Source: an uncultured Bacilli bacterium
Lineage (GTDB): Bacteria > Bacillota_I > Bacilli_A > RF39 > UBA660
Length of the DNA: 32,667 nt
Assembly (NCBI GenBank): GCA_947632735.1
Contig: CANRQG010000003.1
Location: 1 to 32,667 of the forward strand
Direction: 5' to 3'
Position numbers and translations under genes: made by a program
Shown here: piece after piece, positions 49 through 23,545 of the stretch
How positions within the stretch are numbered: the first letter of the stretch is position 1
How the letters are laid out: every line of letters begins with the position of its first letter
Notes under the pieces: model-generated
The model's database searches: none
What the model was told of the DNA's origin: nothing
What the model saw: only the letters and a program-made list of their open reading frames with translations

Positions 49-471
49 TTAGTAAAATAATTCTTGACCCCCCCCCCCATAGCATTTTTTGAGCAAGTCT
101 TTTAGACTTTGAATTATATAGAAGGGACAATTTAAATTAACGTTCATAGCATTTTCCCAAGCAAATTTATCTATTTTGCCAAATTCACTTTTTTCAGTAA
201 TACCACAATTTAAAACTAGAACTTTTATTTCATCAGTAATTTCTTTGACCTTTTCACAAAAAGACAAAGCATTTTCATAGCTATTTAAATTAAGTTTAAT
301 ACAATTAATTTTATCTTTGTATTTAGCATTTTCTTGTAAAAATTTTTGATATGCTTCATCATCATTAGCATAATTAATTATTACGTGATAACCATTTTCT
401 AGTAGTGATTTAGCTATTTCTTTTCCTATTCCTTTAGTGGAACCAGTTACAACTGCATACATATTACTCAT
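49..471 (-). CDS. SDR-family oxidoreductase, N-terminal half, frame broken at a poly-G tract
   Basis: This is the NAD(P)-binding half of a short-chain dehydrogenase/reductase, likely acting on a precursor of the polysaccharide. Visible are the cofactor loop TGSTKGIG near residue 10 and an NCG motif near residue 89 (the usual NAG). The frame then enters an 11-G run (68-78), reads GGGGQELFY and stops after 140 residues; the family usually has about 240. One frame over, the sequence continues as RIILLSSVMG and reaches a Tyr 13 residues after the Ser, the exact Ser-x12-Tyr active-site spacing, and stays open to base 1. Nine or twelve G would restore it. The start overlaps the end of the upstream gene by 8 bases, with GGAGGAA as ribosome site. 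Likely a phase-variable gene in the OFF state; a homopolymer sequencing error is the alternative. Confidence 0.85.
   Translation of the reverse strand: MSNMYAVVTGSTKGIGKEIAKSLLENGYHVIINYANDDEAYQKFLQENAKYKDKINCIKLNLNSYENALSFCEKVKEITDEIKVLVLNCGITEKSEFGKIDKFAWENAMNVNLNCPFYIIQSLKDLLKKCYGGGGQELFY
68..78. repeat. Homopolymer of 11 C (11 G on the coding strand)
   Basis: An uninterrupted run of 11 C lies inside the SDR coding region of an otherwise very AT-rich sequence. No other G/C run in the window exceeds six. The downstream catalytic half is in frame only if the run length is a multiple of three, so a one-base change switches the gene. Confidence 0.95.
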
Positions 472-1852: not shown

Positions 1853-3004
1853 TCAAGCTTTTAAAGAAATTTTATATTTTTTAATTTTTATTTTTAACTT
1901 GAAATAAATTTTCTTTAGTAAGCTATCTTTTCTTTTATATTTTTTATTTAAACTTTCGATAGATAATGTATCAATATCTTTTAAAAACAGCTTTCTTTTA
2001 AATGGTTTAATTGCTGAGGCAATAAGTGATTTATTATTCTCAAAGATATTCTCTATTTGGCATTCTTTTAGGATTAAATCTTTTTTTATTTCTTCTAACA
2101 TTTTTCTTCCTTTAGCACTATTAATGATAAGAGACGAAACACCTGTTTTATCATACATATCAGGATATACTTTTTTTATTCCCCAAAAGTCTCCTGAAGT
2201 TATATCTGAATATTTATTTCCTAACTTAAAATTACAGTTATAACAGCTTTCTCTTAAAGCTTTATCTGATAGGAATAAATTCATATAACTATTATCTTTA
2301 GCTCGTTCTATATGCTTTGAAGTTTTAAATATCATAGAGTTAGAATAAGTGTCCCAACCTGTTTCTTTATCTCTAAAGTTATAACTTATAAGTTTATCAT
2401 TATATTTTTCTTCTAGTTCTTTAACATATTTTTGAAATAACTTTGGTGTTGGAACACCGTGACATATAAAATCAATAGTAAACAAGTTCTCATTATCTTT
2501 TATAATTCTTTTTAGTCCAGCTACCTGACAGGGCGTTCCAACAAATAATATTTTTCTATCTTTTATATTTTTCTTTATAAAACTAAAGATATTTCCTAAA
2601 TCACTTTGTAAATACTTGGCTCTTCTTAATTGTTCTAAATCTTTAACTTCAGATATAGCTTTATGTATCAATTTATTATTTTCAAAAGTAGCTCCAATTA
2701 CAATTCCATCTTCCTTCAATATTTTTTGCGCTATTAGAGTAAATAGTCCTGATGAAGATGATTCTAAAGCTATCTTTTTATTTTTATTGATAGTGGCATA
2801 ACATTCATTCAAAGCAAAATTACTTTTAGTATTTAAAACAGGACAAGTTTTTTTACATAAGCCACAGTTTATACATTTATTCTGATTTATTATAGGGTAT
2901 TTAAAACCATCTAAGTCTTCACTCATTTCTATTGCTTGAACAGGGCAGATAGAAAAGCAAGCTGTACAACCAGTGCACTTTTCACGTTTTAGTACTTCCT
3001 CCAT
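1853..3004 (-). CDS. FrhB-like Fe-S protein (coenzyme F420 hydrogenase/dehydrogenase beta-subunit family)
   Basis: The N-terminus has two classic 4Fe-4S ferredoxin motifs, CTGCTACFSICP (residues 10-21) and CINCGLCKKTCP (about 44-55). The FrhB N- and C-terminal domains follow, with SSSSGLFT, GTPCQVAG, DFICHGVP and a late CYNCNF...DITSGDFWG signature that supplies more cysteines. Members of this family often sit in Firmicutes capsule clusters next to polysaccharide pyruvyltransferases, as here, but their substrate is not known. A flavin/Fe-S reductase acting on a glycan precursor is a reasonable inference. No F420 genes are visible, so the family name should not be read as function. It starts one base after the PP-loop gene ends. 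Confidence 0.85.
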   Translation of the reverse strand: MEEVLKREKCTGCTACFSICPVQAIEMSEDLDGFKYPIINQNKCINCGLCKKTCPVLNTKSNFALNECYATINKNKKIALESSSSGLFTLIAQKILKEDGIVIGATFENNKLIHKAISEVKDLEQLRRAKYLQSDLGNIFSFIKKNIKDRKILFVGTPCQVAGLKRIIKDNENLFTIDFICHGVPTPKLFQKYVKELEEKYNDKLISYNFRDKETGWDTYSNSMIFKTSKHIERAKDNSYMNLFLSDKALRESCYNCNFKLGNKYSDITSGDFWGIKKVYPDMYDKTGVSSLIINSAKGRKMLEEIKKDLILKECQIENIFENNKSLIASAIKPFKRKLFLKDIDTLSIESLNKKYKRKDSLLKKIYFKLKIKIKKYKISLKA

Positions 3005-3005
3005 T

Positions 3006-4199
3006 TTAGTGCCTCTTTACTGTTCTTGCCAATTTTTCTTGAGTATTAGTTGGTAATACCTTTTTTAAAAAAGTTAATATTACTACTTTAATTTTATAGA
3101 TAATTGAAACAGAAAAATCTGTTCTCTTAGATAAAACTGAATATACAGGTTCATTCATTTCACTTTTTCGATAATGTTGTTTCCAAAGCCAGTTATAATA
3201 TTCTTTTCTATGCTCTTGATAGTATTTTATATCAAAAACAGTAGAGAAGTTTTCTAATTTATTAATGGCATCTAAACTGACTAATGTTCTACGACATTTA
3301 CTACAAACCCCACAATTATAAGGTTTATTTATGCAAACGTGTAGATGTTTATTAGCTGGTTCAAAATCAGAAATATTAATTGTTTTTTCTAGTCTTGTTT
3401 TTTCCCCTGATTCAGAATAGATTCTTAAACCTTGATGTGAAAAACATTGTAATGTTAATAAATCATAGTGAGCACTATCTTCTAAATCATTATCAATAAT
3501 TGTAAATCTAGAATAGTCCAAACCAACAGATGCCAAATAATACCTTTTCCATAGTTTTTGTAAAATATATATGGCAAAGCAACAAGAATACGTGTTAGTC
3601 AGATAATGATTTTGTGGGATTTCTGTAGCAAAATTAGAGTCAGTTTCAATAAGTTCAATGCCTAACTCTTTTGCGACTATAGCGGCTTGTTCATATCGTT
3701 CTTTTTTTACTTTATCAATGCCATAATCTTTATAACAATTATTAAAAGCACCTACATTGTTTAGACATAAATGAGTTAAGTTCATACTTTGATATTCCGA
3801 ATTTAAATGATTCTTAATCGCATCAAAAGAGTCTACCCCACAAGAACAACCAGTACCAACTGCGGTTCCTTCTGTTATCGGTTTTATCATAGGGGCTTTT
3901 ATATTAATACTTTTTAAATTATGACCATATCTAGAAAGACTTGGTATTAAAGTTGTTCTAATATTATAAAGTAATTCTTCAGTGATAGGATAATCACTTT
4001 CAATATCTTGGCCCTCACGCATAGCATAATTTAATAAACCTATTACATAAGCATCTATTCTGTCATCAACTAGATATTTACCATATTTTTTATCTACTTC
4101 AAAGAAGATAGAATGTTTTTTATTATCAATAAAAATATCACAAATACATCTCGTTTTATCATTTTTACTAATAATATATGGCTTTTCTATTCTTATCAT
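3006..4199 (-). CDS. PP-loop ATPase-like protein with C-terminal cysteine cluster (QueC/ExsB-like features)
   Basis: I cannot name a specific function. The middle contains GCSCGVDSFDA (about residues 117-127), which matches the SGGxDS PP-loop used by adenylating enzymes such as QueC, NAD synthetase and tRNA thiolases, with Cys replacing the first Gly. The C-terminus has CGVCSKCRRT (about residues 299-308), like the zinc-binding CxxCxxC of QueC, preceded by another Cys-containing stretch (HVCINKP). Length is 397 residues with no membrane segment. It is translationally coupled to the flippase gene upstream (TAATG overlap) and followed by the FrhB-like gene. It probably activates or modifies a carboxylate or amide on a glycan precursor, an inference from the PP-loop only. 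Confidence 0.65.
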   Translation of the reverse strand: MIRIEKPYIISKNDKTRCICDIFIDNKKHSIFFEVDKKYGKYLVDDRIDAYVIGLLNYAMREGQDIESDYPITEELLYNIRTTLIPSLSRYGHNLKSINIKAPMIKPITEGTAVGTGCSCGVDSFDAIKNHLNSEYQSMNLTHLCLNNVGAFNNCYKDYGIDKVKKERYEQAAIVAKELGIELIETDSNFATEIPQNHYLTNTYSCCFAIYILQKLWKRYYLASVGLDYSRFTIIDNDLEDSAHYDLLTLQCFSHQGLRIYSESGEKTRLEKTINISDFEPANKHLHVCINKPYNCGVCSKCRRTLVSLDAINKLENFSTVFDIKYYQEHRKEYYNWLWKQHYRKSEMNEPVYSVLSKRTDFSVSIIYKIKVVILTFLKKVLPTNTQEKLARTVKRH

Positions 4200-5716
4200 T
4201 ATACTAACCTCCTAAACTTTCCAATAAACTTATCAGCAATACCTTTTTCATAATTATTCATTAAAGTAAAATATATTGTAATTAAATAAATAATAGTATA
4301 AATAGACCCATAAACTAATAAACTAATTATTCCTTCTAGTTTCGTTAAATAAATAATTATCCAAATGATAGACACTGGCAATAAGCAAACAATAAGCATT
4401 TTAATAATGTTCTTCCAAAAAAGAACCATATTAAGTTTTAAATAAAATTGATAATATAAATTGATTATAATTATTGATACTATCATTCCTATACCTGTTC
4501 CTAAAGCTGAACCTATTGCGCCATAATATTTAGCCAAAAAGATAGAACAAATAAAATTTATTAAGGCAACTACAATATTAGTAATAGTCGCAAAGCGGTG
4601 TTTATTAAGTGCTTGTCTTATACTTATTCCAAGATTTTGAATTAGTGGTATAGATACAGGTAAAATTAAAAGTAAAGCACAGTAGTAAGAGTCAATATAT
4701 TTTTTTCCTACCCACCAAATTATAAATTCTTTACCAAATAATACTAAGCCACTGGTCATTAAGAAAACAACATAAAACTGTAATCTTCCAACTTTTATAA
4801 ATTCAGCTGTTAATTCTTTAGTGGTAGCATTTTTGGCAATCATTTTTGATATTTTTGGTAAAAGGACACTACTTATAGCTGTAGAGAGTCCAACAAATAA
4901 AGTATTAATTTGTGAAGCAACAGCATAAACAGAAACAGCAATTGTACCTACAACAGCGCCTAAAATAAACTGGTCAATACTCCAATTAATCTTGTCAACT
5001 ATAATGCCTAAAAAAATCCATATAGAATAACTTAAAATTACCTTAAATAATGAAAAGTCAAAACCCATAAATTTAATTTTTATTTTTAATTTTCTTCGAC
5101 AATATAAATAATTAGATAGTAAAATTAATACATTTACTAATGTAATTACTATAACCATAGTAACTGATTTCAAACCCATAAATAATAACGGTATCATAAT
5201 TAATGGTTTAAGAATAGTTCCCAATATAGAGAGTATTTTTTGATAAACAAATTTCTCATAAGCATTTAATATTGAAGAATAAATACTAAAGACAAATGAA
5301 ATAACTAAATTAAAAGTTAAAATTAACATCATTATTTTAGCTTTATGTAATTCCAAAGATGTCATAGTATTACCAAATAAATTATCTACATTAAAATATA
5401 AAATTAAACCTATTACTCCGGCAATTAAACCTATAATGGTAAATATTAAAGCAAACATTCCGTGAAGTTTTTTTTCTTCTTCATATTTTTTTTGAGCTCG
5501 ATACTTAGATGTATAAACGACAATAGCGTTACCAAAGCCTAAATCTAAAACAGTTAAATAACCAACAATAGAATTAACAAGAGAATAAAGTCCATATTCA
5601 CTTTGACCTAATTGTCTTATTAGAAAGGGCGTGTACAATAGCTGAATAAGTGTTGAAGCTATAATGGAAACATAAGATAAAATGGCACCTAATTTTCTAT
5701 TAGTACTTTCATTCAT
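4199..5716 (-). CDS. Wzx-type polysaccharide flippase (MATE/MOP superfamily)
   Basis: A 505-residue, very hydrophobic protein with about 12-14 predicted membrane spans, the usual size for oligosaccharide flippases of the Wzx/RfbX class. The N-terminus (LGAILSYVSIIASTLIQLLY) and the LGQSEYGLYSLVNSIVGYL stretch are typical. It would move the lipid-linked repeat unit across the membrane to the EpsG-like polymerase encoded two genes upstream. It overlaps the TagF-like gene by 8 bases and the next gene by one. No frameshift is seen. Family assignment is secure; substrate cannot be read from sequence. Confidence 0.92.
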   Translation of the reverse strand: MNESTNRKLGAILSYVSIIASTLIQLLYTPFLIRQLGQSEYGLYSLVNSIVGYLTVLDLGFGNAIVVYTSKYRAQKKYEEEKKLHGMFALIFTIIGLIAGVIGLILYFNVDNLFGNTMTSLELHKAKIMMLILTFNLVISFVFSIYSSILNAYEKFVYQKILSILGTILKPLIMIPLLFMGLKSVTMVIVITLVNVLILLSNYLYCRRKLKIKIKFMGFDFSLFKVILSYSIWIFLGIIVDKINWSIDQFILGAVVGTIAVSVYAVASQINTLFVGLSTAISSVLLPKISKMIAKNATTKELTAEFIKVGRLQFYVVFLMTSGLVLFGKEFIIWWVGKKYIDSYYCALLLILPVSIPLIQNLGISIRQALNKHRFATITNIVVALINFICSIFLAKYYGAIGSALGTGIGMIVSIIIINLYYQFYLKLNMVLFWKNIIKMLIVCLLPVSIIWIIIYLTKLEGIISLLVYGSIYTIIYLITIYFTLMNNYEKGIADKFIGKFRRLV

Positions 5717-6923
5717 TTAAATCACTTCCATTTAGTTTTTTATATATCCAGTTAACAACTTTTTTCGATGCATCGCCTCTATCACATACACCAAAATTAG
5801 TAAAAAATATTTTAACTTTTTTCTGATATAAATCATTATTAAATTCTTCTATATTTTTAATTAATTCATTATTGTTTGTTGAAATAGGAAAAGGCAAAGA
5901 CATATAATCAAAGTAATAGCCACGTTCTTTTTGAAATGTTTTTAAATCTGATGCATAAAGAAAAATTGGTCTTTTCAAATAAGCATAGTCAAAAATAATA
6001 GAAGAATAATCTGATATAACTATATCAGATGCAATAAGCAATTCAGAAGAATCATCATAGCTACTAACATCAATTATTTTTTCACTTTTAAAAGATAATA
6101 AATTGCTTAAATTAGCAATATCAGGATGTAGTCTTAATAAAATCACCCATTTTTCATTATTCTTTTCTAAAGTACTTAGTAATCTTTCAAAATCGATATT
6201 ATAATTTTCTAAACTATAGTCATTTCTAAAGGTCGGTGCATACATTAAAATTTTAGTATCATTTTTAATAGAAAGTTTTTCTTTAACTTCAGCCTTTATT
6301 TTGTGACAAGCTTCTTTATCAAAATAAATATCACATCGAGGGAGACCTGACTCAAGTATTTCACCATCATACCACCAACTTCTTCGATATTGTGAAGTTA
6401 ATTCTTTATTATTGGAGATAAATAAATCAGCCATTTTAGAATCTTTTTTAGCAAATTTTACATACCATTTTGGCAAATCTTTTTCTATATCTTTTTCAGC
6501 TTTTTTTAATGAAATACCACCGTGCCAGGTTTGAATATAGTATTGATGTTTTCTTTTAGGTGGATAAAGTGACTTTCTAACATTGTCTATCCAAAACTTA
6601 GCTGTTGCCATTTCATATAAAGATTTAATTGAATTATATTTTACTTTTTTTACTTCTTTAGGTAATTTAGATGTATCAAAATATCTAGAATTTACAAGCC
6701 AAACAATTTTTAATTTATTATCTTTTAAGAGCTCTTCGATGATAAATTTACCACTATCTCCATAGCCTCTGCCACCAAAATTATCAACGACCACTTTATC
6801 TTGAAGAGGAAAAATATTGAATATTGCACCTAAAGAATAATTTCTAAAGCATAAAGCATAATGATAAATATCTAATAAAAAAGTCTTTTTTAATTTTGAA
6901 ACTAATTTATTCATAGTAAACAC
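5709..6923 (-). CDS. CDP-glycerol glycerophosphotransferase family protein (TagF/TagB-like)
   Basis: Members of this family transfer glycerol-phosphate or a similar polyol-phosphate from a CDP carrier to a glycan or teichoic primer. Signatures are IQTWHGGISLKK (about residue 129) with the conserved His, LRLHPDI in the middle, and DIVISDYSSIIFDYAYLKRP near residue 300, the nucleotide-binding block of the family. At 404 residues it matches short TagB-like or capsule-linked members and not the long TagF polymerases. The CDP donor could come from the TagD-like domain encoded at 464-1735. The more probable start is the second Met (MNKLVSK, residue 4), which has the better spacing to the upstream AAGGGAATG. 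Confidence 0.88.
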   Translation of the reverse strand: MFTMNKLVSKLKKTFLLDIYHYALCFRNYSLGAIFNIFPLQDKVVVDNFGGRGYGDSGKFIIEELLKDNKLKIVWLVNSRYFDTSKLPKEVKKVKYNSIKSLYEMATAKFWIDNVRKSLYPPKRKHQYYIQTWHGGISLKKAEKDIEKDLPKWYVKFAKKDSKMADLFISNNKELTSQYRRSWWYDGEILESGLPRCDIYFDKEACHKIKAEVKEKLSIKNDTKILMYAPTFRNDYSLENYNIDFERLLSTLEKNNEKWVILLRLHPDIANLSNLLSFKSEKIIDVSSYDDSSELLIASDIVISDYSSIIFDYAYLKRPIFLYASDLKTFQKERGYYFDYMSLPFPISTNNNELIKNIEEFNNDLYQKKVKIFFTNFGVCDRGDASKKVVNWIYKKLNGSDLNE

Positions 6924-6939
6924 ATTCCCTTCTAGTTAT

Positions 6940-7989
6940 TTAATTTAAGTTATCCTTTAAAAAACTTAAAGCTATTTTTTGTTCTTGGTTTAGCAGATTA
7001 AAGGTTTCTTCAGAATAGAGTTTTAAATTTTTTTCATTAATTATTCCATTATAAACTCTATCATTTAAATTAAACTTTTCTACTAATGTATCAATTCTTG
7101 AAGTCATATCAACTTTATCATCTTCCCTTTTAAAAATAAGAAGAGGTCTATTAAAAATAAGAGCAAATACCGAAGAGTGAAAAGAATCAGTACAAATCAT
7201 AAAAGCATTTTGTTCTAAATATAAAAATTCACTTGGACCAGTATTATAAAAAGGGTCATTTTTATCTAAAAGATTAATAATAGTACAGTTATTTTTATCA
7301 GCAAATTTTTGGATTTCTTGTTTTCTTTTTAGAGAAAGATTTCCTAAAAAATAGCATAAAATATATTTATTGTCTTCTAACATTTTTGGTTTCTTACTAA
7401 CTTTTTGCCATTCTTCTTTTGATAAGAGCATAGTTGGGTCAACTAAAAGTTTAATATCTTTCCTTTTAGTTAATTTTTCAACTATTTCTTTACCACTATT
7501 TTCTCTAACCGAAATAGCTTTAAAGTTTTCTAGATATTTTTTAGCAAATTTTTCTTCTTGAGGACTTAACTTTGATATTCCAAAACTAGCTGATAAAGCT
7601 ATTTTTTGTTCATTTTTAGCAAAAGATAGAAAATCAACATCACGCATTCTGTTATAAGTTGGCTTCCATACCTGGTCACTTCCAACAACAAAATAATCAA
7701 ATTTTTTAGCTAATGAAGAATAAGGTGTTACTAACTTTTTATTAAATTTTATATTTTTATTAAATTCAGAAAAGCATTTATCTCTTTCTGATACTTCTTT
7801 TTTATTTTTATTAAGTAATAAATATTTTAAATATCTAAAAGCAAACATTTTTTTAGTATTAAGAAGTGGTATATTGCGTAAAGTAATGGCATCATTTCCT
7901 AGTTTTTTTAAAACTTCTTGAACAGCATAATTTTGAAGTCTATTGCCATAATTATTGAAGTCATTAATTGTTACTATTCCTACTTTCAT
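6940..7989 (-). CDS. Polysaccharide pyruvyl transferase family protein
   Basis: This enzyme class adds pyruvate ketals from PEP to sugars of exopolysaccharides. The N-terminus MKVGIVTINDFNNYGNRLQN is characteristic, as are the DYFVVGSDQVWKPTYN block (GSDQ-W) and CTDSFHSSVFALIFNRPLL, which holds the conserved DSFH(G/S) motif. I chose the ATG at 7989 because AGGGGGG lies 8 bases before it; an in-frame ATG ten codons upstream lies past that ribosome site and adds a non-conserved leader. Length is then 349 residues, normal for the family. It follows the polymerase gene with a short gap, so it is within the operon. Confidence 0.88.
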   Translation of the reverse strand: MKVGIVTINDFNNYGNRLQNYAVQEVLKKLGNDAITLRNIPLLNTKKMFAFRYLKYLLLNKNKKEVSERDKCFSEFNKNIKFNKKLVTPYSSLAKKFDYFVVGSDQVWKPTYNRMRDVDFLSFAKNEQKIALSASFGISKLSPQEEKFAKKYLENFKAISVRENSGKEIVEKLTKRKDIKLLVDPTMLLSKEEWQKVSKKPKMLEDNKYILCYFLGNLSLKRKQEIQKFADKNNCTIINLLDKNDPFYNTGPSEFLYLEQNAFMICTDSFHSSVFALIFNRPLLIFKREDDKVDMTSRIDTLVEKFNLNDRVYNGIINEKNLKLYSEETFNLLNQEQKIALSFLKDNLN

Positions 7990-8006
7990 TTTTGATACCC
8001 CCCTAA

Positions 8007-9155
8007 TTAATTTAACCACGGAAATGTAGTTGAGCTATATGGAAAAGCTTCATTATTTTTTTGTATAGGATATTTCCAATACCAAAATGTAAATAACATT
8101 AGAAAAACTGTAATATGGCTAATTATTCGATTTTTTTCTTTTTTAAATGAGTTGGCAAAAGCGGGAACACAGTAAAGCATACCTATATAGCGATAGTAAT
8201 AACCTACTCTTTCTCCATTAAGTAATCTAAAACTAATTACATATAAAATAATTTCTACTAAAATTAAATAAAAGTATTTAGTAAATTCTCTATTATCTGT
8301 ACTTTTAGAAAACATAAGCATCGTTACTCCAAAATAAAGACAAATAAATCTATATATTAATTCAGAATAGCTTGTACTAATATCACTAGAATAGTAATCT
8401 GAATTTAAATAATTAGCATATTTTTCTGGTAGTAGTTTAAGAGTATTAGAAAGGAAGTATAGAATTTTATCGTAGTACATTATGAAAAATGAAAGAGCTA
8501 TTAAAATTAAAGATAAGAATATAAATTTATCCTTATTAGAGATTTTTTCAGAGTTAAAGATTAACATAACAGGAATAATAGGAACAGCTAGAATGGTACT
8601 ATCGTGGAAAAGGAAAGCTAAAAGATAAAAAATAAAAACTTTGAAATATTTCTTTTCATTTAAAAAAACTATTCCTAGCAAAACAAAGCCAATTGAAATA
8701 CTTTGTCTCATAACTGTAAAAGAACGACAATACCATAGCAATAAATATGTGGCCATTACAAGAGGCATACTTAACTTTTCACGATATTTATAAGCAAATA
8801 TAAATACACATAGACACGGTATAAGTTGAAGAAAAAATAGGGAGACTTCTAATCTATCTGAAATAAAATGCGTTACTGCATAAATAAGTATACGATAACC
8901 AACTTCAACATAATTTGCTCCTCTAAAAAATTCAAGAAATGACCTAGCGTTTTTGGATCTAGCAACTACTGTTGTTACATAAACATTAATATCTCTTCCA
9001 ACGCCAATAGCTCTAACGCCAGCAATAAAACTTGGAACTACTACAGTAAGGATAGAATAAAAAATTCCAAGCTTTTTTTTATCATTTTTAAAAGCTTTTT
9101 GAGCATTAAAAGCACATAGTATTGTCAATAGGAAACAAAGTATATAAGCTTTCAT
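8007..9155 (-). CDS. EpsG/Wzy-like polysaccharide polymerase
   Basis: A 382-residue integral membrane protein with about ten hydrophobic helices. It carries the EpsG-type loop after the first spans (AGVRAIGVGRDINVYVTTVV), where related proteins have G-x-D-x-x-x-Y, and a later LLWYCRSFTVMRQSISIGF stretch with the R-Q pattern common in EpsG. It would polymerise lipid-linked repeat units on the outer face of the membrane. It lies between the Stealth and pyruvyltransferase genes, and with the Wzx flippase in the same operon it completes a Wzx/Wzy export route. No length-regulating kinase is visible in the window. Confidence 0.85.
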   Translation of the reverse strand: MKAYILCFLLTILCAFNAQKAFKNDKKKLGIFYSILTVVVPSFIAGVRAIGVGRDINVYVTTVVARSKNARSFLEFFRGANYVEVGYRILIYAVTHFISDRLEVSLFFLQLIPCLCVFIFAYKYREKLSMPLVMATYLLLWYCRSFTVMRQSISIGFVLLGIVFLNEKKYFKVFIFYLLAFLFHDSTILAVPIIPVMLIFNSEKISNKDKFIFLSLILIALSFFIMYYDKILYFLSNTLKLLPEKYANYLNSDYYSSDISTSYSELIYRFICLYFGVTMLMFSKSTDNREFTKYFYLILVEIILYVISFRLLNGERVGYYYRYIGMLYCVPAFANSFKKEKNRIISHITVFLMLFTFWYWKYPIQKNNEAFPYSSTTFPWLN

Positions 9156-9174
9156 TTAACCTCTTCCTTTCTTT

Positions 9175-10170
9175 TTATTTTTCAAAACTAGATTTTTCAG
9201 GTAAAATTTTTTCAAAGCTTAATTGTAATTCTTTTTTGGCTTTTTCAAAATCTAAGTTTGGATTATCATTTATACATATGACTTTATATTTTTGTTTTTC
9301 TATAGCATTACATAAAGTTTCATTATTATCTTTAACAGAATAAACTTTGCCAAATTTAAAACTTCTTGGGTAAAAGTTACCTTCTAATATTTGCCAGTAG
9401 CGAAAGGTATATTGACTAAAATCATTTATTGAACGGAATTTATGAGAACAAGTAGTATCAAAAGCATCATATTCCTTATTCCAGACTTTCTTTAAGGTTT
9501 CTTTTTTTAAAGATACAGGTATATGAGTATCATAAATTAAAGAAAAATTATTCCAAGGCAAGAGAAGTAAAGTTCTAAAGTTTTTCATTCCATATCTTAA
9601 ATTAAAGTATTTTGTAAAATGCTCTTTCAAAAATTTTCTTTTAGAAAAATTTTGATTAATTAAAGACATATTATTTAGGAGAATATGGCTAAATATTGAT
9701 TTATTATTTTCCCCTACTAAAGCATTTTCAGCAAAAGAATCACGTGGTAAATTATTTTTGAAAAAATCAGTATCTTCTACTTTTCGTATCAAAAACATAT
9801 CATCGTTAAAATAAACAAAATTTTCAGATAAATCTTTAATAAGATGCATATTATTTTCAATTGGATGAGAATTAAATGTTGGCAAATATTTTTTAGGAAT
9901 ATAATCTTCGTGTTTTACAATATCTAATTTTTTATTATCTATATTTAGCCACTCTGGTAAATGACCATACGTAATAAAATGAATTTTTCTAACCCAGGGA
10001 GCAAATTTTTCTACTCCTCTGAACCAATACTTTAAAAGTTCCCAATCACGATACCTAGAATTCTTACTATCTGAAGTTTTATCAGGAATATATTTATCTT
10101 TTTCTTTTTGCCATTTAGAATCATTTCCATCTACCCAAGTAATTACAAAATCTATATCTAAATTTCTCAT
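9175..10170 (-). CDS. Stealth-family capsular sugar-phosphate transferase
   Basis: Stealth proteins transfer hexose-1-phosphate units and build phosphodiester-linked capsules. All conserved blocks are present in order: CR1 IDFVITWVDGNDSKWQKEK near the start, CR2 SRYRDWELLKYWFRGVEKFA with WVRKIHFITYGH, CR3 FVYFNDDMFL with the metal-site DD, and CR4 further on (CSHKFRSINDFSQYTFRYWQ). The ATG at 10170 is preferred to one six codons earlier because AGAAGGAAG sits 5 bases before it. The gene is in the centre of the operon, right after the NodB gene. Together with the TagF-like and CDP-alcohol transferase-like proteins, it argues for phosphodiester bonds in the polymer. Confidence 0.9.
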   Translation of the reverse strand: MRNLDIDFVITWVDGNDSKWQKEKDKYIPDKTSDSKNSRYRDWELLKYWFRGVEKFAPWVRKIHFITYGHLPEWLNIDNKKLDIVKHEDYIPKKYLPTFNSHPIENNMHLIKDLSENFVYFNDDMFLIRKVEDTDFFKNNLPRDSFAENALVGENNKSIFSHILLNNMSLINQNFSKRKFLKEHFTKYFNLRYGMKNFRTLLLLPWNNFSLIYDTHIPVSLKKETLKKVWNKEYDAFDTTCSHKFRSINDFSQYTFRYWQILEGNFYPRSFKFGKVYSVKDNNETLCNAIEKQKYKVICINDNPNLDFEKAKKELQLSFEKILPEKSSFEK

Positions 10171-10189
10171 AAAATCTTCCTTCTGCAAA

Positions 10190-10975
10190 TTAGTTATTTA
10201 TTAAATCAATAGTTTTACAAATTTCTATTTTGTTGTCATCTCGTAGTTTTTTCAAATACTTACAAAATTCCAAAAAATCATTGTAATCCCAAGTAAATAA
10301 GTCATCGTAAAATGGTTCATCTTTTTTTAGAATACTATGAAAACAAATGATATAAGATTTATCATTTTTGATAGCATCTGATACTAATCTTTTTAACTCT
10401 TTTAATTTTGTATCTTTAATAGCGCCAGAAGAATATAATAAAAATTCATCAGTATTTTTAATATCTGAGTCTTTATAACTCCAACTAAAGATACTTGGTA
10501 TATTCAATTTTCTATTTATTTTTCGAACAGCTTTTCTCATAAAAACATTGTTAGCAAAATTCTTACCTACTCGCAAATAACATATATTATTATCCTTTAG
10601 TTTTTTAATTACATTAGGTAGTGTATCAGTATCAAATTCACTATGTGGAGATACTATACCTAGCTTTTGTTTATCACTTATATTTAAAACTTTTCTTAAT
10701 TCATTTACACCTTTTATTAAATTATCAACGTCATTGTTATGTTCATAGCCGTGCCCAGCTATTTCAAAGAGATTATTATTATTATTATATAAATCTTTTA
10801 ATTCATCAATACTCATAGGTATATGTTCTGAGGGTTTTTCGATATTAGGTGTTTTTTCAACATAACCAATAGTAATATTAAAAGTAGCAGGAATATTTAG
10901 TGGTTCTAGTATTTCTTTAGCCGCAACATAATTATCTTTGCGACCATCATCAAAAGATAAAGATATTTTAGTCAT
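10190..10975 (-). CDS. Polysaccharide deacetylase (NodB homology domain)
   Basis: This is a CE4-type deacetylase domain of 261 residues without a signal peptide, so it probably acts in the cytoplasm on a precursor. The first metal and base motif is SLSFDDGRKDN (residues 5-15, both Asp present) and the second is GHGYEHN (about residue 74), giving the HxxxH metal pair. The later LRVGK...FSWSYKDSD and IICFHSIL blocks fit the distal motifs, with a terminal His. Neighbouring genes abut on both sides by one or two bases, so it is co-transcribed. Its substrate is likely an N-acetylated sugar of the repeat unit (inference). Confidence 0.85.
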   Translation of the reverse strand: MTKISLSFDDGRKDNYVAAKEILEPLNIPATFNITIGYVEKTPNIEKPSEHIPMSIDELKDLYNNNNNLFEIAGHGYEHNNDVDNLIKGVNELRKVLNISDKQKLGIVSPHSEFDTDTLPNVIKKLKDNNICYLRVGKNFANNVFMRKAVRKINRKLNIPSIFSWSYKDSDIKNTDEFLLYSSGAIKDTKLKELKRLVSDAIKNDKSYIICFHSILKKDEPFYDDLFTWDYNDFLEFCKYLKKLRDDNKIEICKTIDLINN

Positions 10976-10976
10976 T

Positions 10977-12032
10977 TCAAGATGCTCCTTTCATTGTTCT
11001 TTGTTTTTGAAAATATCTTAATTTCGCAATTAAGTTAATCAAGTAGAAAAATCTAAATTTTATAAAATATATAGTAAGTTTACGTGTAAAAGACATATCT
11101 AAAAAATACAATTTATCTAGGGCTAATTTTATATCACTATCATTTAGATAATTCTTATACTTTGCCTTTTTTACCTTATACTTGTCTTCATTAGTAGGGC
11201 TAAAATAACCACTTATTGCTGCAGTATTAATTGCGTAAAGCAAACGATTATAAAACATTATGTATAGTTTTTCTTTATTGTCTGACTTTTTTATTGTCTT
11301 TTTTATTTCTTTTAAACCCTTTAGTGTTAGTTTTATATTTTCTTCATTAAATGTTTCTGTAATTGATTTATCATTATAAACATAATGGTATATATACTCT
11401 TTTAAAAATAGAACACTTTTAGCTTTTTCGTAGAGTCTTATTCCAAATTCTATTCCCTCTACTCCAAATTTTAAATCTTCATTATGATATATATTATTTT
11501 CTATTAAGAATTCTCTTCTCATTATCTTCACATTAGCAGATGAAACATTACCATTAAAATCAAGCATTTCTTCTTGCCAAAATTTAACTTCATCATCTAA
11601 ATATTCTTTTTTATCTATGAATTTAGAATAGTCAAATTTTACAATTTTATCTTTAAATTGCTTCATAGCACAAGCATCTACAATATCATATTTTCTCTTT
11701 TTAGTACTTTCATATAAAACTTCGCAAGAAAATGGTTCTAGAAAATCGTCACCATCTAAGAGCATTACGTATTCACCGGTTGAATTTCTAACTCCAGTAT
11801 TCCTAGCACCTGACAAGCCTTTGTTTTTTTGGTGAATCACTTTTATTCTTTTATCTTTCAAAGCAAATTCATCACATATTTGACCGCAATTATCGGGAGA
11901 ACCATCATCAACTAAAATTATTTCTATTTCTTTTAAGGTTTGATTAAGTAAACTATTAATACAATTATTTAAAAATTGTGTAGGAACTTTATATACAGGA
12001 ACAACAACACTTACTTTTGCTTTATTAGTCAT
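10977..12032 (-). CDS. Glycosyltransferase family 2
   Basis: A GT-A-fold transferase: KVSVVVPVYKV at the N-terminus, EIILVDDGSPDN near residue 40 for the nucleotide-sugar Asp, SGARNTGVRNS, and YVMLLDGDDFLEP with the metal-binding DxD near residue 90. The protein ends in a basic tail. I take the ATG at 12032, which has GGAAG eight bases before it; an in-frame ATG five codons upstream lies before that site. Donor and acceptor cannot be told. A 94-base gap to the CDP-alcohol transferase gene upstream is the longest in this part of the operon; I see no clear promoter or terminator in it. Confidence 0.9.
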   Translation of the reverse strand: MTNKAKVSVVVPVYKVPTQFLNNCINSLLNQTLKEIEIILVDDGSPDNCGQICDEFALKDKRIKVIHQKNKGLSGARNTGVRNSTGEYVMLLDGDDFLEPFSCEVLYESTKKRKYDIVDACAMKQFKDKIVKFDYSKFIDKKEYLDDEVKFWQEEMLDFNGNVSSANVKIMRREFLIENNIYHNEDLKFGVEGIEFGIRLYEKAKSVLFLKEYIYHYVYNDKSITETFNEENIKLTLKGLKEIKKTIKKSDNKEKLYIMFYNRLLYAINTAAISGYFSPTNEDKYKVKKAKYKNYLNDSDIKLALDKLYFLDMSFTRKLTIYFIKFRFFYLINLIAKLRYFQKQRTMKGAS

Positions 12033-12141
12033 TTTATAATCTTCCATTCTAGGCTACTGTCATTTTGGTGAATATCTAATGTTGACATATTTATTGTCCT
12101 TTTTTTTAAAGTTCCATATGTAAAGTTTTTCAAAAAAATCA

Positions 12142-12918
12142 CTATCCTTTATTTTCTATTTTTCTAGTGTTGTTTATGGCCTTTAAAATATATTTTGTAA
12201 TCATCAAAAGGCTTGAAGCAAAGTAATATAAGAAGCAATATATTACAACTAAATCTACAAAGTTAAAAATAATACCAAATAAAACTAGAAAAGGTAAAAT
12301 CCCACCAATTCCAAAATCAGCTTCAATTCGCACTATTAAAGATGTTGTTTGATTTATGTCTGTTCTTTTTTCTTTTTCAACTTCCATCTTGCCCATATCA
12401 GCAAGACCACGCTCACAAGCTTTATATTTTTGATATATAAGTCGCATCAAGGTATCAGAACTAGATGCTAAAGTGCCTAGTAAAACTAACCATATAACAC
12501 CGCTTTCAAAAATAACTCCTCCATTAAAGTAACCGTTTATACCAAGAGATGTACATAATAAACCAACTAGGACATAGCTACTTATACTATCTGCGAACTC
12601 TCCAAATGGTTGCTTTTTCACTGAACGAGCGATATTTCCATCAGTACTATCTGATAAAACCCAAACATTAACTAGAATAGCTCCTATGATATTACATATT
12701 CTGTTTGGAATAATTATGAGAATACACGCTGATAATGCTATTAAAATAGAAAAATAAGACACTTGATTAGCTGTTATACCAATGTTAGAACATATACTAG
12801 AAGTTACAAAAGATAAAGGTCTATAAAATACTTGTGTAACTATTGAATCTTTTTTTCTTTTCCAATCTGGTAAGTTCTCTTTAAAATATTTAGGTGTATA
12901 TTTTTTATTAGTTTTCAT
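12142..12918 (-). CDS. CDP-alcohol phosphatidyltransferase-like membrane protein, variant active site
   Basis: A 258-residue membrane protein with about six hydrophobic segments. It carries most of the family signature that binds Mg and the CDP-alcohol: D90, D93-G94, A97-R98, G106 and D110 (within SDSTDGNIAR and GEFADSISS). The fourth Asp, normally the base that activates the acceptor four residues after the third, is Ser (S114). Such proteins normally transfer a phospho-alcohol. In a capsule operon it may transfer a polyol- or sugar-phosphate to a glycan lipid, or it may be altered in activity. The gene overlaps the GT4 gene by 11 bases. The family call is good; activity is uncertain. Confidence 0.82.
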   Translation of the reverse strand: MKTNKKYTPKYFKENLPDWKRKKDSIVTQVFYRPLSFVTSSICSNIGITANQVSYFSILIALSACILIIIPNRICNIIGAILVNVWVLSDSTDGNIARSVKKQPFGEFADSISSYVLVGLLCTSLGINGYFNGGVIFESGVIWLVLLGTLASSSDTLMRLIYQKYKACERGLADMGKMEVEKEKRTDINQTTSLIVRIEADFGIGGILPFLVLFGIIFNFVDLVVIYCFLYYFASSLLMITKYILKAINNTRKIENKG

Positions 12919-14032
12919 CTACTCTACCTACTTTCATATAAAATCTTTCTAGTTTTTTTGCTTCTACTTTTATATTGAAGCCTTTTTTTGATACTTCATT
13001 GAAGGCATTACTACGATTATATTTATGGTTAACTTTTGAAATGGTTTCTGCCCAAGAAAGTTCTTTTTGCTTTAATGATAAAAAAATAGTTGAGTCCAAT
13101 ATTTTAGACTCTTTAGTCATAGAGGTTGAAAATACACATAAAAGGCCACTAGTTTGGGCTTCTATTCCTACAACTGGTAGTCCTTCATAAAGACTTGGTA
13201 ATAAAAAAACATCCATTACTTGATATAATTCATTAACATCTTCTCTTTGACCTAAAAAAAATACATTTTTTTCGAGTCCTAGTTCTTTTACTTTTTTTTC
13301 TATCATTTTCCTAATTGGTCCCTGCCCAACTAGCAAGAGAATTGCATTTTTATTTTGCTTGTAAATTTCGCTAAAGATATCTATTAAAAAAGTATGATTC
13401 TTTTGAGTGACAAATCTTCCTATATGACCTATTACTATCTGGTTATCATTAATTCCTAATTCTTTTCTTTTTAGTTTTCTTATTTTTTCATCATATTTAA
13501 ATTTATCTATATCTATGGCATTATTTAAGAGATATACATTTCCTTTAGCAAATTCTTTATTTCCAAAAAGCCATCTTCCTGCATATTCACTACAACAAAA
13601 ATAATTTGTGGCATAAACTTTGCTAAAGGGTCGTAAAATTTGCTTTAATAAATTTTTCTTCCATTCTTTTTTGTTAGATGTTGAGTGTGAGTGAGCTATA
13701 CGAATTGGTATATTAGCTTTTTTAGCTACTCTTAGAGGAAACACTGATAAGGTATTTATATGAGAATGTACTATTTTGTATTTTTCTCTTTTAAATATTT
13801 TCAACAATTCTTTGTTGTATTTAAATATTTTTTGATAAGGTGGAATTAAAAAAACTCTTCCTCCAAGTTTTTCTATTTCTTCATAAGCTATATTGGTAGA
13901 GTCTTCATCACAGATAAAATCAAATTGAATTTTATTTCTATCTATATGTCGATAGTAGTTCATAACTACTGACTCAACGCCGCCACCATTCCATTTGCCA
14001 ATTATGTGAGCAACTCTAATAGGCTTTTCCAT
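12908..14032 (-). CDS. Glycosyltransferase family 4 (EpsF/CapM-like)
   Basis: A GT-B-fold retaining transferase of 374 residues. The N-terminus IRVAHIIGKWNGGGVESVV has the Gly-rich acceptor-side loop of EpsF-like enzymes, HSHINTLS and AHSHST are typical, and the C-terminal half has IGRFVTQKNH followed by the donor-binding SLYEGLPVVGIEAQTSG (E-x7-E). It is the second gene of the operon, so it likely adds the second sugar to the lipid-linked residue placed by the priming enzyme upstream. Ribosome site AGAAGG lies shortly before its ATG. The sugar specificity is not readable. Confidence 0.92.
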   Translation of the reverse strand: MEKPIRVAHIIGKWNGGGVESVVMNYYRHIDRNKIQFDFICDEDSTNIAYEEIEKLGGRVFLIPPYQKIFKYNKELLKIFKREKYKIVHSHINTLSVFPLRVAKKANIPIRIAHSHSTSNKKEWKKNLLKQILRPFSKVYATNYFCCSEYAGRWLFGNKEFAKGNVYLLNNAIDIDKFKYDEKIRKLKRKELGINDNQIVIGHIGRFVTQKNHTFLIDIFSEIYKQNKNAILLLVGQGPIRKMIEKKVKELGLEKNVFFLGQREDVNELYQVMDVFLLPSLYEGLPVVGIEAQTSGLLCVFSTSMTKESKILDSTIFLSLKQKELSWAETISKVNHKYNRSNAFNEVSKKGFNIKVEAKKLERFYMKVGRVDEN

Positions 14033-14056
14033 TTTATTACCTTCTTAACTTATTAT

Positions 14057-14737
14057 TTATTTAGCTCCGCTTTTTGTAATTACTGCTTTGATTGTGTCAA
14101 TGATGCATCTAATATCAAGTGATAAACCCATATTCTTTATGTAGTAGTATTCTAGTCTTAATCTTTCTTCATATGTAGTTGCACTTCTTCCGTGCGAAGC
14201 CCACCAACTCGTGATACCTGGTAGCACCTGCCAATAAATATCAGGATTACCGTTATGAGACTCAAGTTCACCTCGAACAAGTGGTCTAGGTCCTATGAAA
14301 CTCATCTTTCCACCTAATACATTCAAAACCTGCATTAGTTCATCTAGAGAAGATTTTCTTAATAAGTTGCCTAACTTAGTAATTCGTGGATCTTTATCTA
14401 ATTTTTGATTTTCTTCCCATTCTTTTCTATATTTTTCATCTTTTAGTAATTCCTTCAACTTTTCATCAGCATTAGGTACCATAGTTCTAAATTTATATAG
14501 ATTAAATGGTTTTCCATTCTTTCCTATTCTTTCTTGCTTATATATTATTGAATGAAAATCACCAGTTAACACATAGCTTATTTTAACTATTATTGCTAAA
14601 GGTATTAAGAATACTAAACCAACTAAACTACATATGATATCAAAACATCTTTTAATAAAGAAATAAGTAGCTCTTTTAACTTTACTAATAGTACAAATAC
14701 TACTAGTGTTTATTTCCATACTTTTTTCATCTATCAT
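14057..14737 (-). CDS. Priming sugar-1-phosphate transferase (WbaP/EpsL/WcaJ type)
   Basis: This monotopic phosphoglycosyltransferase starts repeat-unit synthesis by moving a sugar-1-phosphate to undecaprenyl phosphate. It has one N-terminal membrane helix (residues about 33-56), then RIGKNGKPFNLYKFRTM, the catalytic SLDEL and FIGPRPLV. Its C-terminal block is unusual: GITSWWASHGRSATTYEERL replaces the common GITGxWQVSGR, and ELMQ replaces ELPQ. It is the first gene of the leftward operon and is paralogous to the gene at 25484 (shared SLVGLVFLIPL-like helix, GDFHSI, RIGKNGK). Its ATG overlaps the stop of a possible 24-codon leader ORF. Confidence 0.93.
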   Translation of the reverse strand: MIDEKSMEINTSSICTISKVKRATYFFIKRCFDIICSLVGLVFLIPLAIIVKISYVLTGDFHSIIYKQERIGKNGKPFNLYKFRTMVPNADEKLKELLKDEKYRKEWEENQKLDKDPRITKLGNLLRKSSLDELMQVLNVLGGKMSFIGPRPLVRGELESHNGNPDIYWQVLPGITSWWASHGRSATTYEERLRLEYYYIKNMGLSLDIRCIIDTIKAVITKSGAK

Positions 14738-15517: not shown

Positions 15518-16846
15518 TTGAAAAATAAAATTTGGAAAGTAGGAGTTTACATACGTATTTCTAGAGATGATATGTACTCTAAAGAAAGTAATAGTATAAT
15601 AAATCAGAGAAATTACTTAACAGAATACTTACTACAAGAAAAAATGGAAATATATGACTATTATGTAGATGATGGTTACACAGGAACAGATTTTAATAGA
15701 CCAGCTTTTATGCGAATGTTTAACGATATAAAAGAAGGAAAAATTAATACAATTATTGTAAAAGACTTATCACGTTTAGGCAGAAATTATATCTTTTTAG
15801 GAGAATATCTTGAGCATATTTTCCCACTTTATGACTTAAGAGTAATCTCTCTCAATGATAATTTAGATAATTTTAAAGATCCAGAATGTTTTAATAATAT
15901 CTTGGTTCCCTTTAAAAATCTTCTTAATGATGAGTATGCTAGAGATATATCCATTAAAGTAAAATCATCGCTAAACGCTAAAAGATATAATGGAGAATTT
16001 GTTGGTAGTATTGCCCCTTTTGGTTATTTAAAAGATCCTAATAATAAGAATAAATTAATTATTGATAAAGATGCCTCTAAAACAGTAGAATTAATTTTTT
16101 CTTTAGCTTTAAAAAATTATAGTTATAGTAAAATAGCTAGTTACTTAAATGAAATGCATATTTTAAATCCTGCTACTTACAGAGAAATTAACTTCAACCA
16201 AAGAAATAATCGCAATTACTTAAATAAGAATAATACTTGGAGTTCTTCTTCTATAAGCTCTATTTTAAAAAATCGTGTCTATTGTGGTGACTTAGTACAA
16301 TCTAAAACTAAAACCATTTCTTATAAAGTACATAAAATTGTGCGCAAAGATTTAGAAGATATGATTATTGTTGAAAATACTCACCCACCTATTATTAATA
16401 GAACAGATTTTAAAAAAGTTCAAGAAATTGTAAAGGAAAGAACAAGAGCAGCTAATACAACTGGTAGTACTTCTTTGTTTACTGGATATTTAAGATGTTA
16501 TGAATGCCAGTACAAAATGCGTAAGTCAAAAGCCGGTTATAAAGATGATCATAAAACTAGAGATTATTACTATTATTGCTCTACTTATCGAAATAAATCA
16601 AAAGAGTTATGCTCATCTCATCGAGTTACAGGTAAGTTTTTAGAAGAAAAAGTCTTTGAAGAAATTAATAAAAAAATATCTTCTTGTTTAAGTAATAGTG
16701 AAAAAATAGATGATTACTGGCTAAAAGAGTTTAAAAAATACCATAATTTAGATAAATTAAACAAAAATATGCTAGATTCTTTAGTAAAAACGATTTATAT
16801 TCATAATAATCTTGATGTAACAATTGTTTATAAATATGAACAATAA
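15518..16846 (+). CDS. Large serine recombinase 1 (resolvase-invertase family)
   Basis: First of three overlapping recombinase genes. The resolvase domain covers residues 8-155: VGVYIRIS with nucleophile S15, DDGYTGTDFNRPAF, VKDLSRLGRN and VISLNDNLD. The recombinase domain (GSIAPFGYLKDP...ILKNRVYCG) and a zinc ribbon with Cys near 327, 330, 352 and 364 follow. After the last Cys only about 80 residues remain, against about 150 in the other two, so the coiled-coil arm that controls integration versus excision seems shortened. The TTG start is supported by GAGGAGG. It would cut and rejoin DNA at att-like sites that I could not identify. Confidence 0.92.
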   Translation: MKNKIWKVGVYIRISRDDMYSKESNSIINQRNYLTEYLLQEKMEIYDYYVDDGYTGTDFNRPAFMRMFNDIKEGKINTIIVKDLSRLGRNYIFLGEYLEHIFPLYDLRVISLNDNLDNFKDPECFNNILVPFKNLLNDEYARDISIKVKSSLNAKRYNGEFVGSIAPFGYLKDPNNKNKLIIDKDASKTVELIFSLALKNYSYSKIASYLNEMHILNPATYREINFNQRNNRNYLNKNNTWSSSSISSILKNRVYCGDLVQSKTKTISYKVHKIVRKDLEDMIIVENTHPPIINRTDFKKVQEIVKERTRAANTTGSTSLFTGYLRCYECQYKMRKSKAGYKDDHKTRDYYYYCSTYRNKSKELCSSHRVTGKFLEEKVFEEINKKISSCLSNSEKIDDYWLKEFKKYHNLDKLNKNMLDSLVKTIYIHNNLDVTIVYKYEQ

Positions 16847-18335
16847 ATGGTCATTTGGTATTTACCTGCGTCTATCAAATGAAAATACTAGTAATAGTAT
16901 TAATAATCAAAGACTAGTCATTAATAACTTTCTTTTAAAAAGACAAGATATTGAAATATATAATACTTATATAGATGAAGGTTTTACTGGTACTAATTTT
17001 GATAGACCAGCTTTTAAAGCTCTTCTTGAAGATATTAGATTAAAAAGAATCAACGGTATTATTGTTAAAGACTTATCTAGACTAGGACGTAATTACATTA
17101 GTGTCGGGACTTATATAGATGAATTCTTTCCTGCTAATAATATTCGATTTATTTCTATAAATGATAATATTGATACTATAAACTCCCTAAATCAAAATGA
17201 AAGTATTACGACATCATTTAAGAATATTATTAATGAACTTTATGTTAAAGATATTTCTACAAAAGTTAAAGCAAACATATCTTATAAAAGAAAAACAGGT
17301 AAATTCATATCAGGAAACACTCCTTATGGTTATAAAATTAATCCTAATAATAAATACCAATTAGTAATTGATGAAGCTGTTTATAAAAACGTTGTTTATA
17401 TCTTTTCTCTTTATTTAAAAGGTTATGGTATCAATAGAATAGTTAAGCAATTAAATAAAAAGCGAATTGTTTGTCCTGCCAAATATAAAAAAATTAATAT
17501 TAAAAAAGAAAACATTTATTGGACAAATACTACTGTTCATAATATTTTAACTAATCGTGTTTACTGTGGAGAGTTGAATAACTTAAAACATATTCATCAA
17601 CCTATTATTCAGGAAGAGACTTTTAAAAAAGTTCAAAATCTTTTAGAAATAAAAAGAATTGGCGCCAATAAAAGTAGAGAGAAATATCTTTTTTCTGGCT
17701 TTATCAAATGTTTTTCTTGTAAAGCTTTTATGCTTATTAAAAAAAGTAACACTACTAATTATGAAATATATTGTTCAACTTATGCTAGGATAAATGAAGA
17801 ACTATGTAGTAGTCATTATATTACTAGTAGATATTTAGAAAAAATTGTTAGTATTAATATTAATAATAGAATAAAAGATTTATTTATTATAAAGAAAAGA
17901 CTTTTAAATATAAAAAATTATATGAAAAGAAATAATTATTTAACTATTCTATTTAATGATAAAGACTTGATAAAAAAATACCTTTACAATGCCAATTTAG
18001 GAAAGAAACTGGTCTATGAAAAATGGAAACTAAAAAAATTTTGCTTGAGTGATTATTTCTTTTTTATTGATATCATAAATAAATATATATTTTTAGTAGA
18101 AAGATTAAAAAAGCTTCTTCTTAAAATAATAAGCTCTATTAATAATAGTATTGATGGTATTAGTTATTTAAATAATTATTTAAAATATAGAGATAAAGCT
18201 TTGAGTAGAAAGATGCTAGAATTATTTATTGACGTTATTTACATAAAAGAAAACAGTAAGATAAGCATTATATATAAAGATGAAGATAAAATTAAAAGTT
18301 TAAAAAATTTTATAGAAGATTTTTTTAGTGAATAA
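16824..18335 (+). CDS. Large serine recombinase 2
   Basis: A 503-residue recombinase, second in the trio, whose start overlaps gene 1 by 23 bases (or 11 from the second ATG, MNNKWSF). The catalytic domain reads FGIYLRLS with S18 as nucleophile, then DEGFTGTNFDRPAF, VKDLSRLGRN and FISINDNID. The recombinase domain (GNTPYGYKINP, ILTNRVYCGEL) and zinc ribbon (CFSC, then YCSTY...LCSSH) follow. A long Lys/Ile/Leu-rich coiled-coil region covers about residues 340-470. Full length suggests an active enzyme. Related to but clearly diverged from 1 and 3, so it is not a recent duplicate. It may act as a partner subunit (inference). Confidence 0.92.
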   Translation: MFINMNNKWSFGIYLRLSNENTSNSINNQRLVINNFLLKRQDIEIYNTYIDEGFTGTNFDRPAFKALLEDIRLKRINGIIVKDLSRLGRNYISVGTYIDEFFPANNIRFISINDNIDTINSLNQNESITTSFKNIINELYVKDISTKVKANISYKRKTGKFISGNTPYGYKINPNNKYQLVIDEAVYKNVVYIFSLYLKGYGINRIVKQLNKKRIVCPAKYKKINIKKENIYWTNTTVHNILTNRVYCGELNNLKHIHQPIIQEETFKKVQNLLEIKRIGANKSREKYLFSGFIKCFSCKAFMLIKKSNTTNYEIYCSTYARINEELCSSHYITSRYLEKIVSININNRIKDLFIIKKRLLNIKNYMKRNNYLTILFNDKDLIKKYLYNANLGKKLVYEKWKLKKFCLSDYFFFIDIINKYIFLVERLKKLLLKIISSINNSIDGISYLNNYLKYRDKALSRKMLELFIDVIYIKENSKISIIYKDEDKIKSLKNFIEDFFSE

Positions 18336-20521: not shown

Positions 20522-20550
20522 GGTACTGGCTGATTAGCCAGTACCTATTT
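20522..20550 (+). terminator. Terminator hairpin after the VanZ gene (GTACTGGCT family)
   Basis: GGTACTGGCT and AGCCAGTACC form a perfect 10-bp stem with a GATT loop, followed by TATTTTT. It is the first member of the hairpin family found at five places in the window. Confidence 0.85.
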
Positions 20551-23086: not shown

Positions 23087-23545
23087 ATGGATGACAAACA
23101 TACTTTATCACATACAACGTGGAATTGCAAATACCATATAGTATTTGCACCAAAATATAGGAGAAGAGTATTCTATAGTGAAAATAGATTAGAGATAGGA
23201 CAAATACTAAGAGAATTATGTAAATGGAAAGGTGTGAATATAGTGAATGCAGAAGTATGCCCAGACCATATACATATGTTGTTAGAAATACCACCGAAAA
23301 TAAGTGTATCAAGTTTTATGGGATTTTTGAAAGGAAAAAGTAGCCTAATGATATATGAGAGATGGGGAAATATGAAATTCAAATATAGAAATAGAGAATT
23401 TTGGTGTAGAGGATACTATGTTGATACAGTAGGAAAAAATGAACAAAAAATAAAGGAATATATAGATAAGCAATTAAGAGAAGACCATATGGCAGAACAA
23501 CTAACATTAGAAAAGTTAGACCCGTTTACGGGAAGCAAGTATTAG
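23087..23545 (+). CDS. tnpA: IS200/IS605-family TnpA (Y1 HUH transposase)
   Basis: A full-length 152-residue Y1 single-strand transposase. KYHIVFAPKYRRRVFY near residue 15 is the family N-terminus, DHIHMLLEIPP near residue 60 is the HUH metal site, and KEYIDKQ holds the catalytic Tyr (residue 125) and Gln. FWCRGYYVDTVGKNE is also conserved. Transposition proceeds as a single-stranded circle at replication forks. All key residues are present, so it is probably active. No TnpB accompanies it, making it IS200-like and not IS605-like. Codon use is less extreme AT-rich than neighbours, in line with recent arrival. Confidence 0.95.
   Translation: MDDKHTLSHTTWNCKYHIVFAPKYRRRVFYSENRLEIGQILRELCKWKGVNIVNAEVCPDHIHMLLEIPPKISVSSFMGFLKGKSSLMIYERWGNMKFKYRNREFWCRGYYVDTVGKNEQKIKEYIDKQLREDHMAEQLTLEKLDPFTGSKY

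Follow-up and report, generated by a model that had tools for sequence, protein, structure and literature searches.

The family of uncultured gut bacteria analyzed here probably controls its cell surface through poly-G slippage: in many of its species, a promoter containing a G-run has been copied in front of many paralogous surface genes, and further G-runs lie within coding regions of glycan genes (an SDR and acyltransferases). The gut origin is suggested by the record titles and habitats of relatives, not by the window's own record. The window, i.e. the whole stretch of DNA that was analyzed, comprises 32,667 nucleotides and covers contig C3 from end to end; the MAG to which it belongs has 1.42 Mb (126 contigs, 93% complete, 3% contamination). 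It carries a run of 11 G, which we interpret with good confidence as a phase-variation (contingency) tract within an SDR gene of glycan biosynthesis; by its context, the phase-variation reading of this tract is well supported. Frames, tract positions and promoter spacings were read directly from the DNA; we infer that tract length changes in cells, that expression tracks the tract, and that the surface glycan changes.

Base by base, the tract is C11 on the forward strand at positions 68-78, i.e. G11 on the minus strand, and no other G/C run longer than 6 occurs in the window. The initial annotation had located the switch at 49-80, rightly so, with the tract proper at 68-78. The SDR gene starts with an ATG at 471 on the minus strand, and its 5' half (79-471) carries the cofactor loop TGSTKGIG and an LNCG motif (Pfam adh_short, 1.9e-23). 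The corresponding open reading frame (49-471, minus) reads MSNMYAVVTGSTKGIG...LNCGI...KKCY-GGGG-QELFY* and ends nine residues past the tract start, at a TAA stop (49-51) in the frame given by the G11 allele; the predicted product has 140 aa and lacks the catalytic residues. One base over, the post-tract frame (1-67, minus) reads SRIILLSSVMGKYPHSTSLVYN and stays open to base 1; it contains the catalytic Ser (44-46) and Tyr (5-7) in Ser-x12-Tyr spacing, as aligned with four intact orthologs. Since the tract begins at a codon boundary, the halves are joined solely by lengths divisible by three, and 11, which is a draft MAG consensus and could be wrong by one or more, is out of frame. All this agrees with the initial annotation, which had described a frame interrupted between the cofactor half and the catalytic half, the latter open to the edge, and a rejoining restricted to multiples of three. 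It had also called the run extreme for such AT-rich DNA, and with first-order Markov statistics of the window, 4.6e-5 runs of at least 11 G are expected per window. The G11 tract is thus beyond chance and longer than the 8 nt from which a mononucleotide run counts as hypermutable, and its length shifts the frame of a gene that is otherwise intact, as judged without the approximately 72 middle codons; the 157 readable codons keep the SDR motifs and show no lesion beyond the frame break. Of the class motifs sought (TGxxxGxG and Ser-x12-Tyr-xxx-Lys), TGSTKGIG and Ser-x12-Tyr are present together with the Pfam match of 1.9e-23; the Lys lies beyond the contig and is found as YNVSK in all four orthologs. 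The PDB match of an SDR ortholog is FabG (3.3e-33). Judged by these matches, the gene is a FabG-like classical SDR (adh_short), one more of a known kind.

The orthologs were obtained by searching with the gene directly upstream, a cytidylyltransferase/Gfo-Idh fusion, which yielded four loci (L084-L087) with 73-76% identity. They stem from MAGs titled uncultured Bacilli or Clostridia, with isolates named 'Lapin', and two of them match genomes from the window's own family. At each locus, the gene after the fusion is an unbroken SDR of 243-246 aa which aligns with both window pieces; the gene order is cytidylyltransferase/Gfo-Idh, SDR, TPP enzyme, and the order of fusion and SDR is that of the window. 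Because the four intact orthologs cover both pieces, the two window halves are assigned to one SDR gene. None of the four SDR orthologs contains a G-run of 7 or more. The tract position is the sole length-variable spot in the ortholog alignment (RNSSAGRIIL, TNDVGRIIL, DCSGKGRIIF, NNEIEGGRIIL), so that Gly3 or Gly4, a few extra glycines in a length-variable loop, would likely be harmless. Few genomes of the family have an ortholog of the fusion (8 out of 386); at the seven other fusion loci, an SDR is found nearby in two only, neither with a tract. The N-terminal half of the SDR was also used as a probe in 60 relatives and was dropped, as it yielded just paralogs of about 30% identity and the fusion gene worked better. 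According to our model, replication slippage would alter the number of Gs in the SDR tract. At lengths divisible by three, the gene would encode a complete SDR whose length-tolerant loop holds three or four glycines. At any other length, the assembled 11 among them, it would encode the 140-residue stub without catalytic Ser and Tyr, and the precursor that the cytidylyltransferase/SDR/TPP set supplies for the polysaccharide would then be altered or missing.

As the window is a whole contig, the truncation of the SDR is due to the contig end and not to the window edge. The initial annotation had proposed to extend the sequence left of base 1 and see whether the second half is intact; the attempt ended at the contig end, where C3 stops. 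In the orthologs, the second half is intact. The SDR tail is probably located on contig C42, whose high end opens with NQYINGASIDVNGGYDYF; the adjacency of C3 and C42 is suggested by synteny and by this tail match. Next to the SDR tail, C42 has a deleted TPP remnant. Then follow an Acyl_transf_3 gene (L060:6855-8063; Pfam and frame reading), which contains a G10 in frame and is the probable downstream neighbor of the window SDR, a second SDR copy with an internal deletion, and a TPP gene. About 72 middle residues of the SDR are absent from the assembly between the two contigs, and no separate piece carrying them was found in the genome assembly. By eye, about 77 nt at the end of C42 recur without a mismatch in the second SDR copy, and exact 77-nt overlaps between contig ends indicate an assembler k of 77. 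The end of C3 falls 67 nt beyond the tract, and 67+10 equals this k; the first 77 nt of C3 occur once in the genome and overlap with no other contig. Given this sum and the uniqueness of these 77 nt, the break is most simply explained by a G10 and a G11 allele meeting in the assembly graph, which is a hint, not proof, of a G10 allele alongside G11 at the C3 end.

The same contig break bears on the possibility of an assembly or sequencing error, according to which the true tract has a stable in-frame length of 9 or 12. Homopolymer lengths are unreliable in draft MAGs, and C3 breaks off 67 nt after the tract; but a one-base error would alter the reported state and not the presence of a long G-run, and the other coding tract of the genome, the G10 on C42, was assembled in frame. 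We consider such an error unlikely. A plain pseudogene, in which the frame break is a step of decay and the G-run a passive relic, appears quite improbable, even though the deleted SDR copy and the TPP remnant on the probable neighbor contig are decayed duplicates and reveal that decay occurs at the SDR locus. Both halves keep their SDR motifs, the readable codons show no further damage, and the break sits exactly at an 11-G run in DNA of 26% GC, in a genome full of such runs at or in surface genes; moreover, poly-G is not a product of decay alone. The missing middle of the SDR may hold further damage. The C42 glycan locus, where the G10 acyltransferase adjoins the SDR tail, the deleted second SDR copy and the TPP remnant, presents a picture of duplication and decay.

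The genes around the SDR fit a contingency tract in a polysaccharide pathway. Directly upstream lies the fusion of a glycerol-3-phosphate-cytidylyltransferase-like domain with a Gfo/Idh/MocA oxidoreductase (464-1735, minus; Pfam CTP_transf_like 1.8e-16, GFO_IDH_MocA 4.8e-7; PDB 2b7l/1coz). The remaining same-strand cell-surface polysaccharide cluster (1853-14737, minus; Pfam and ORF list) includes FrhB-like, flippase-like (by eye), Glyphos_transf, pyruvyl transferase, EpsG, Stealth, deacetylase, CDP-alcohol transferase, GT4 and initiating sugar transferase genes. PDB relatives of the SDR, TPP and fusion set are FabG-type reductases, acetolactate synthase, which the TPP enzyme of the window genome resembles, and glycerol-3-phosphate cytidylyltransferase. 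The initial annotation had proposed a probable phase-variable capsule enzyme and a polymer that alternates between two chemical forms. Phase variation gains from the single gene indicated by four orthologs, from the surface-polysaccharide cluster and from the large-scale use of G-runs; 'capsule' is a guess, and a teichoic-acid-like or other exopolysaccharide fits equally; the two chemical forms are a hypothesis. Elsewhere in the window, three tandem large serine recombinases (15518-19914) lie between two divergent glycan clusters, both of which start with a sugar transferase (14057-14737, minus; 25484-26158, plus); near the recombinases, no convincing inverted repeat of an invertible promoter was found. 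Around an IS200-type transposase (23087-23545), the palindrome GTACTGGCTATATAGCCAGTAC recurs at 20523, 22930 and 25388, in two identical copies and one variant.

Counted from stretches read around tracts, the genome contains at least 54 runs of 8 or more G (8-12), whereas 0.57 are expected under the first-order Markov model of the window. Two of the 54 were found to be coding, namely those in the window SDR and the C42 acyltransferase. About 50 belong to one promoter module, TTGACA-N9/10-G(8-12)-TATNNT, with ATACCACCCT or a similar sequence before the tract and a start codon about 30-110 nt downstream. The initial annotation missed these promoter-type runs because they are located outside the window. 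Some non-coding runs are module copies clipped by contig ends, and few deviate: one copy lacks TATNNT after the tract and one has TACAAT. A further G-run promoter drives an acyltransferase on C42. A G8 run near base 1501 of L166 differs from the other promoters in its flanks, which look like an inverted repeat (TTATCGGACAGACTC / AGATTGTCCGACAATAG). In the 44 readable promoters of this genome, as well as in 65 of 291 family genomes, the G-run lies between the -35 and -10 hexamers, as in porA and tp0126; the total spacer in the 44 is 17-21 nt, mostly 19-20 with a mode of 19, and therefore within slippage reach of 17 nt. Within the genome, tract length does not compensate for a 9- versus 10-nt pre-tract segment (p=0.40), and no paralogs with near-identical long flanks and different tract lengths were found. 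Slippage in the promoter tracts would shift the -35/-10 distance before surface-protein genes; spacers of 19-20 nt would leave most promoter copies weak, and with two Gs fewer the distance would approach 17.

Most module copies precede members of one family, characterized by an N-terminal hydrophobic segment and the conserved motif SKDVYYKDNSGLLADNVQDAIDGTC, with about 67 strong matches in the genome; examples are found on contigs C12, C20, C42 and C110 (L046, L051, L060 and L077, respectively). Motif and upstream DNA could be read in 48 members: at least 43 of these have a G-run (some clipped at contig ends), one is too short to judge, and four have none, including one with an ordinary TTGACA-N17-TAAAAT promoter. 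The one full-length member tested, a membrane-anchored surface protein of 266 aa (L044, contig C7), contains the Gp10_C domain of phage baseplates (1.7e-20). A further two proteins encoded behind G-run promoters, one of them with 512 aa (L048), gave no Pfam match, and no lipobox was seen by eye in the family.

Relatives share this use of G-runs. Runs of at least 9 G occur in 163 out of 291 family genomes, 21 of which have 20 or more, up to 76; among 339 genomes from other families of the class, none has more than 12 G-runs. The strict form TTGACA-N-G8-N-TANNNT is present in 65 of the 291 genomes and 46 of 150 genera, with a single hit for the reversed control, and genomes without it have other G-run modules upstream of surface-protein genes. 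For a comparison of spacers, we took one locus from each of 28 genomes, the window's own included: the tract position within the spacer differs, but 25 of the 28 loci have a total spacer of 18-20 nt. When the three spacer parts were shuffled, a mean of 9.9 of 28 fell within 18-20 nt, and never more than 19 in 20,000 trials. Coding tracts in relatives lie in glycan genes, i.e. three acyltransferases, a TupA-like ATP-grasp and a GT2; the acyltransferase-3 genes carry their G-runs at differing positions, in frame in L087:9020-10048 and L126:792-1823 and splitting the gene in L132:483-1498. Homopolymer runs can provoke transcriptional slippage, but it is very improbable that the SDR run is merely tolerated without switching, with slippage of RNA polymerase or ribosome yielding some full-length SDR at any length, as this leaves unexplained the promoter-spacer tracts at conserved total spacing, where RNA slippage cannot matter.

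If switching by poly-G slippage holds for this family, its repertoire would be among the largest known, in commensals with genomes of about 1 Mb. Extensive repertoires of this kind have mostly been described in pathogens such as Campylobacter, Neisseria, Treponema and Mycoplasma. Such a repertoire in reduced-genome, uncultured gut commensals would suggest that surface switching is of general use there in coping with host immunity, phages and competitors. Because tract lengths can be counted in existing metagenome reads, the use of the repertoire over time or between hosts is measurable without culture. In a literature search, we found no paper on slippage switching in this bacterial group.

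The genome resembles the Campylobacter jejuni phasome in being AT-rich, in its many runs of 8-12 G, in the surface-glycan genes concerned and in frame switching, which here is deduced. C. jejuni has a median of 20 poly-G/C tracts per genome, and about 82% of the poly-G tracts in a large isolate set lie in ORFs (PMC6321876). In contrast, nearly all tracts of our genome, which belongs to a different phylum, sit in one repeated promoter module, and only 2 of 54 are coding. In porA and tp0126, a homopolymer tract in the -35/-10 spacer changes the spacer length, and the optimum for tp0126 is 17 nt (PMC2791445, PMC7864442). A homopolymer between -35 and -10 is thus shared with Neisseria porA/opc/fetA and Treponema pallidum tp0126; however, those systems involve one or few promoters per genome, whereas here at least 43 paralogous surface genes stand behind one kind of predicted G-run promoter. 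In the vlp/vlhA systems of Mycoplasma, each member of a large paralogous family of variable lipoproteins has its own repeat-controlled promoter. Our family is similar in this arrangement; it differs in having poly-G in the core spacer instead of poly-A or GAA, in showing no lipobox by eye, and in one member with Gp10_C. PMC2791445 cites the GAA spacing of pMGA. The acyltransferase-3 genes oafA/oafB provide on/off O-acylation of surface glycans (PMC9558356); unlike these, the relatives' acyltransferases carry coding G-runs at different positions, and their switching is presumed. Compared with all these systems, the SDR of the window genome is of a known kind, and the promoter repertoire is a variant not described before.
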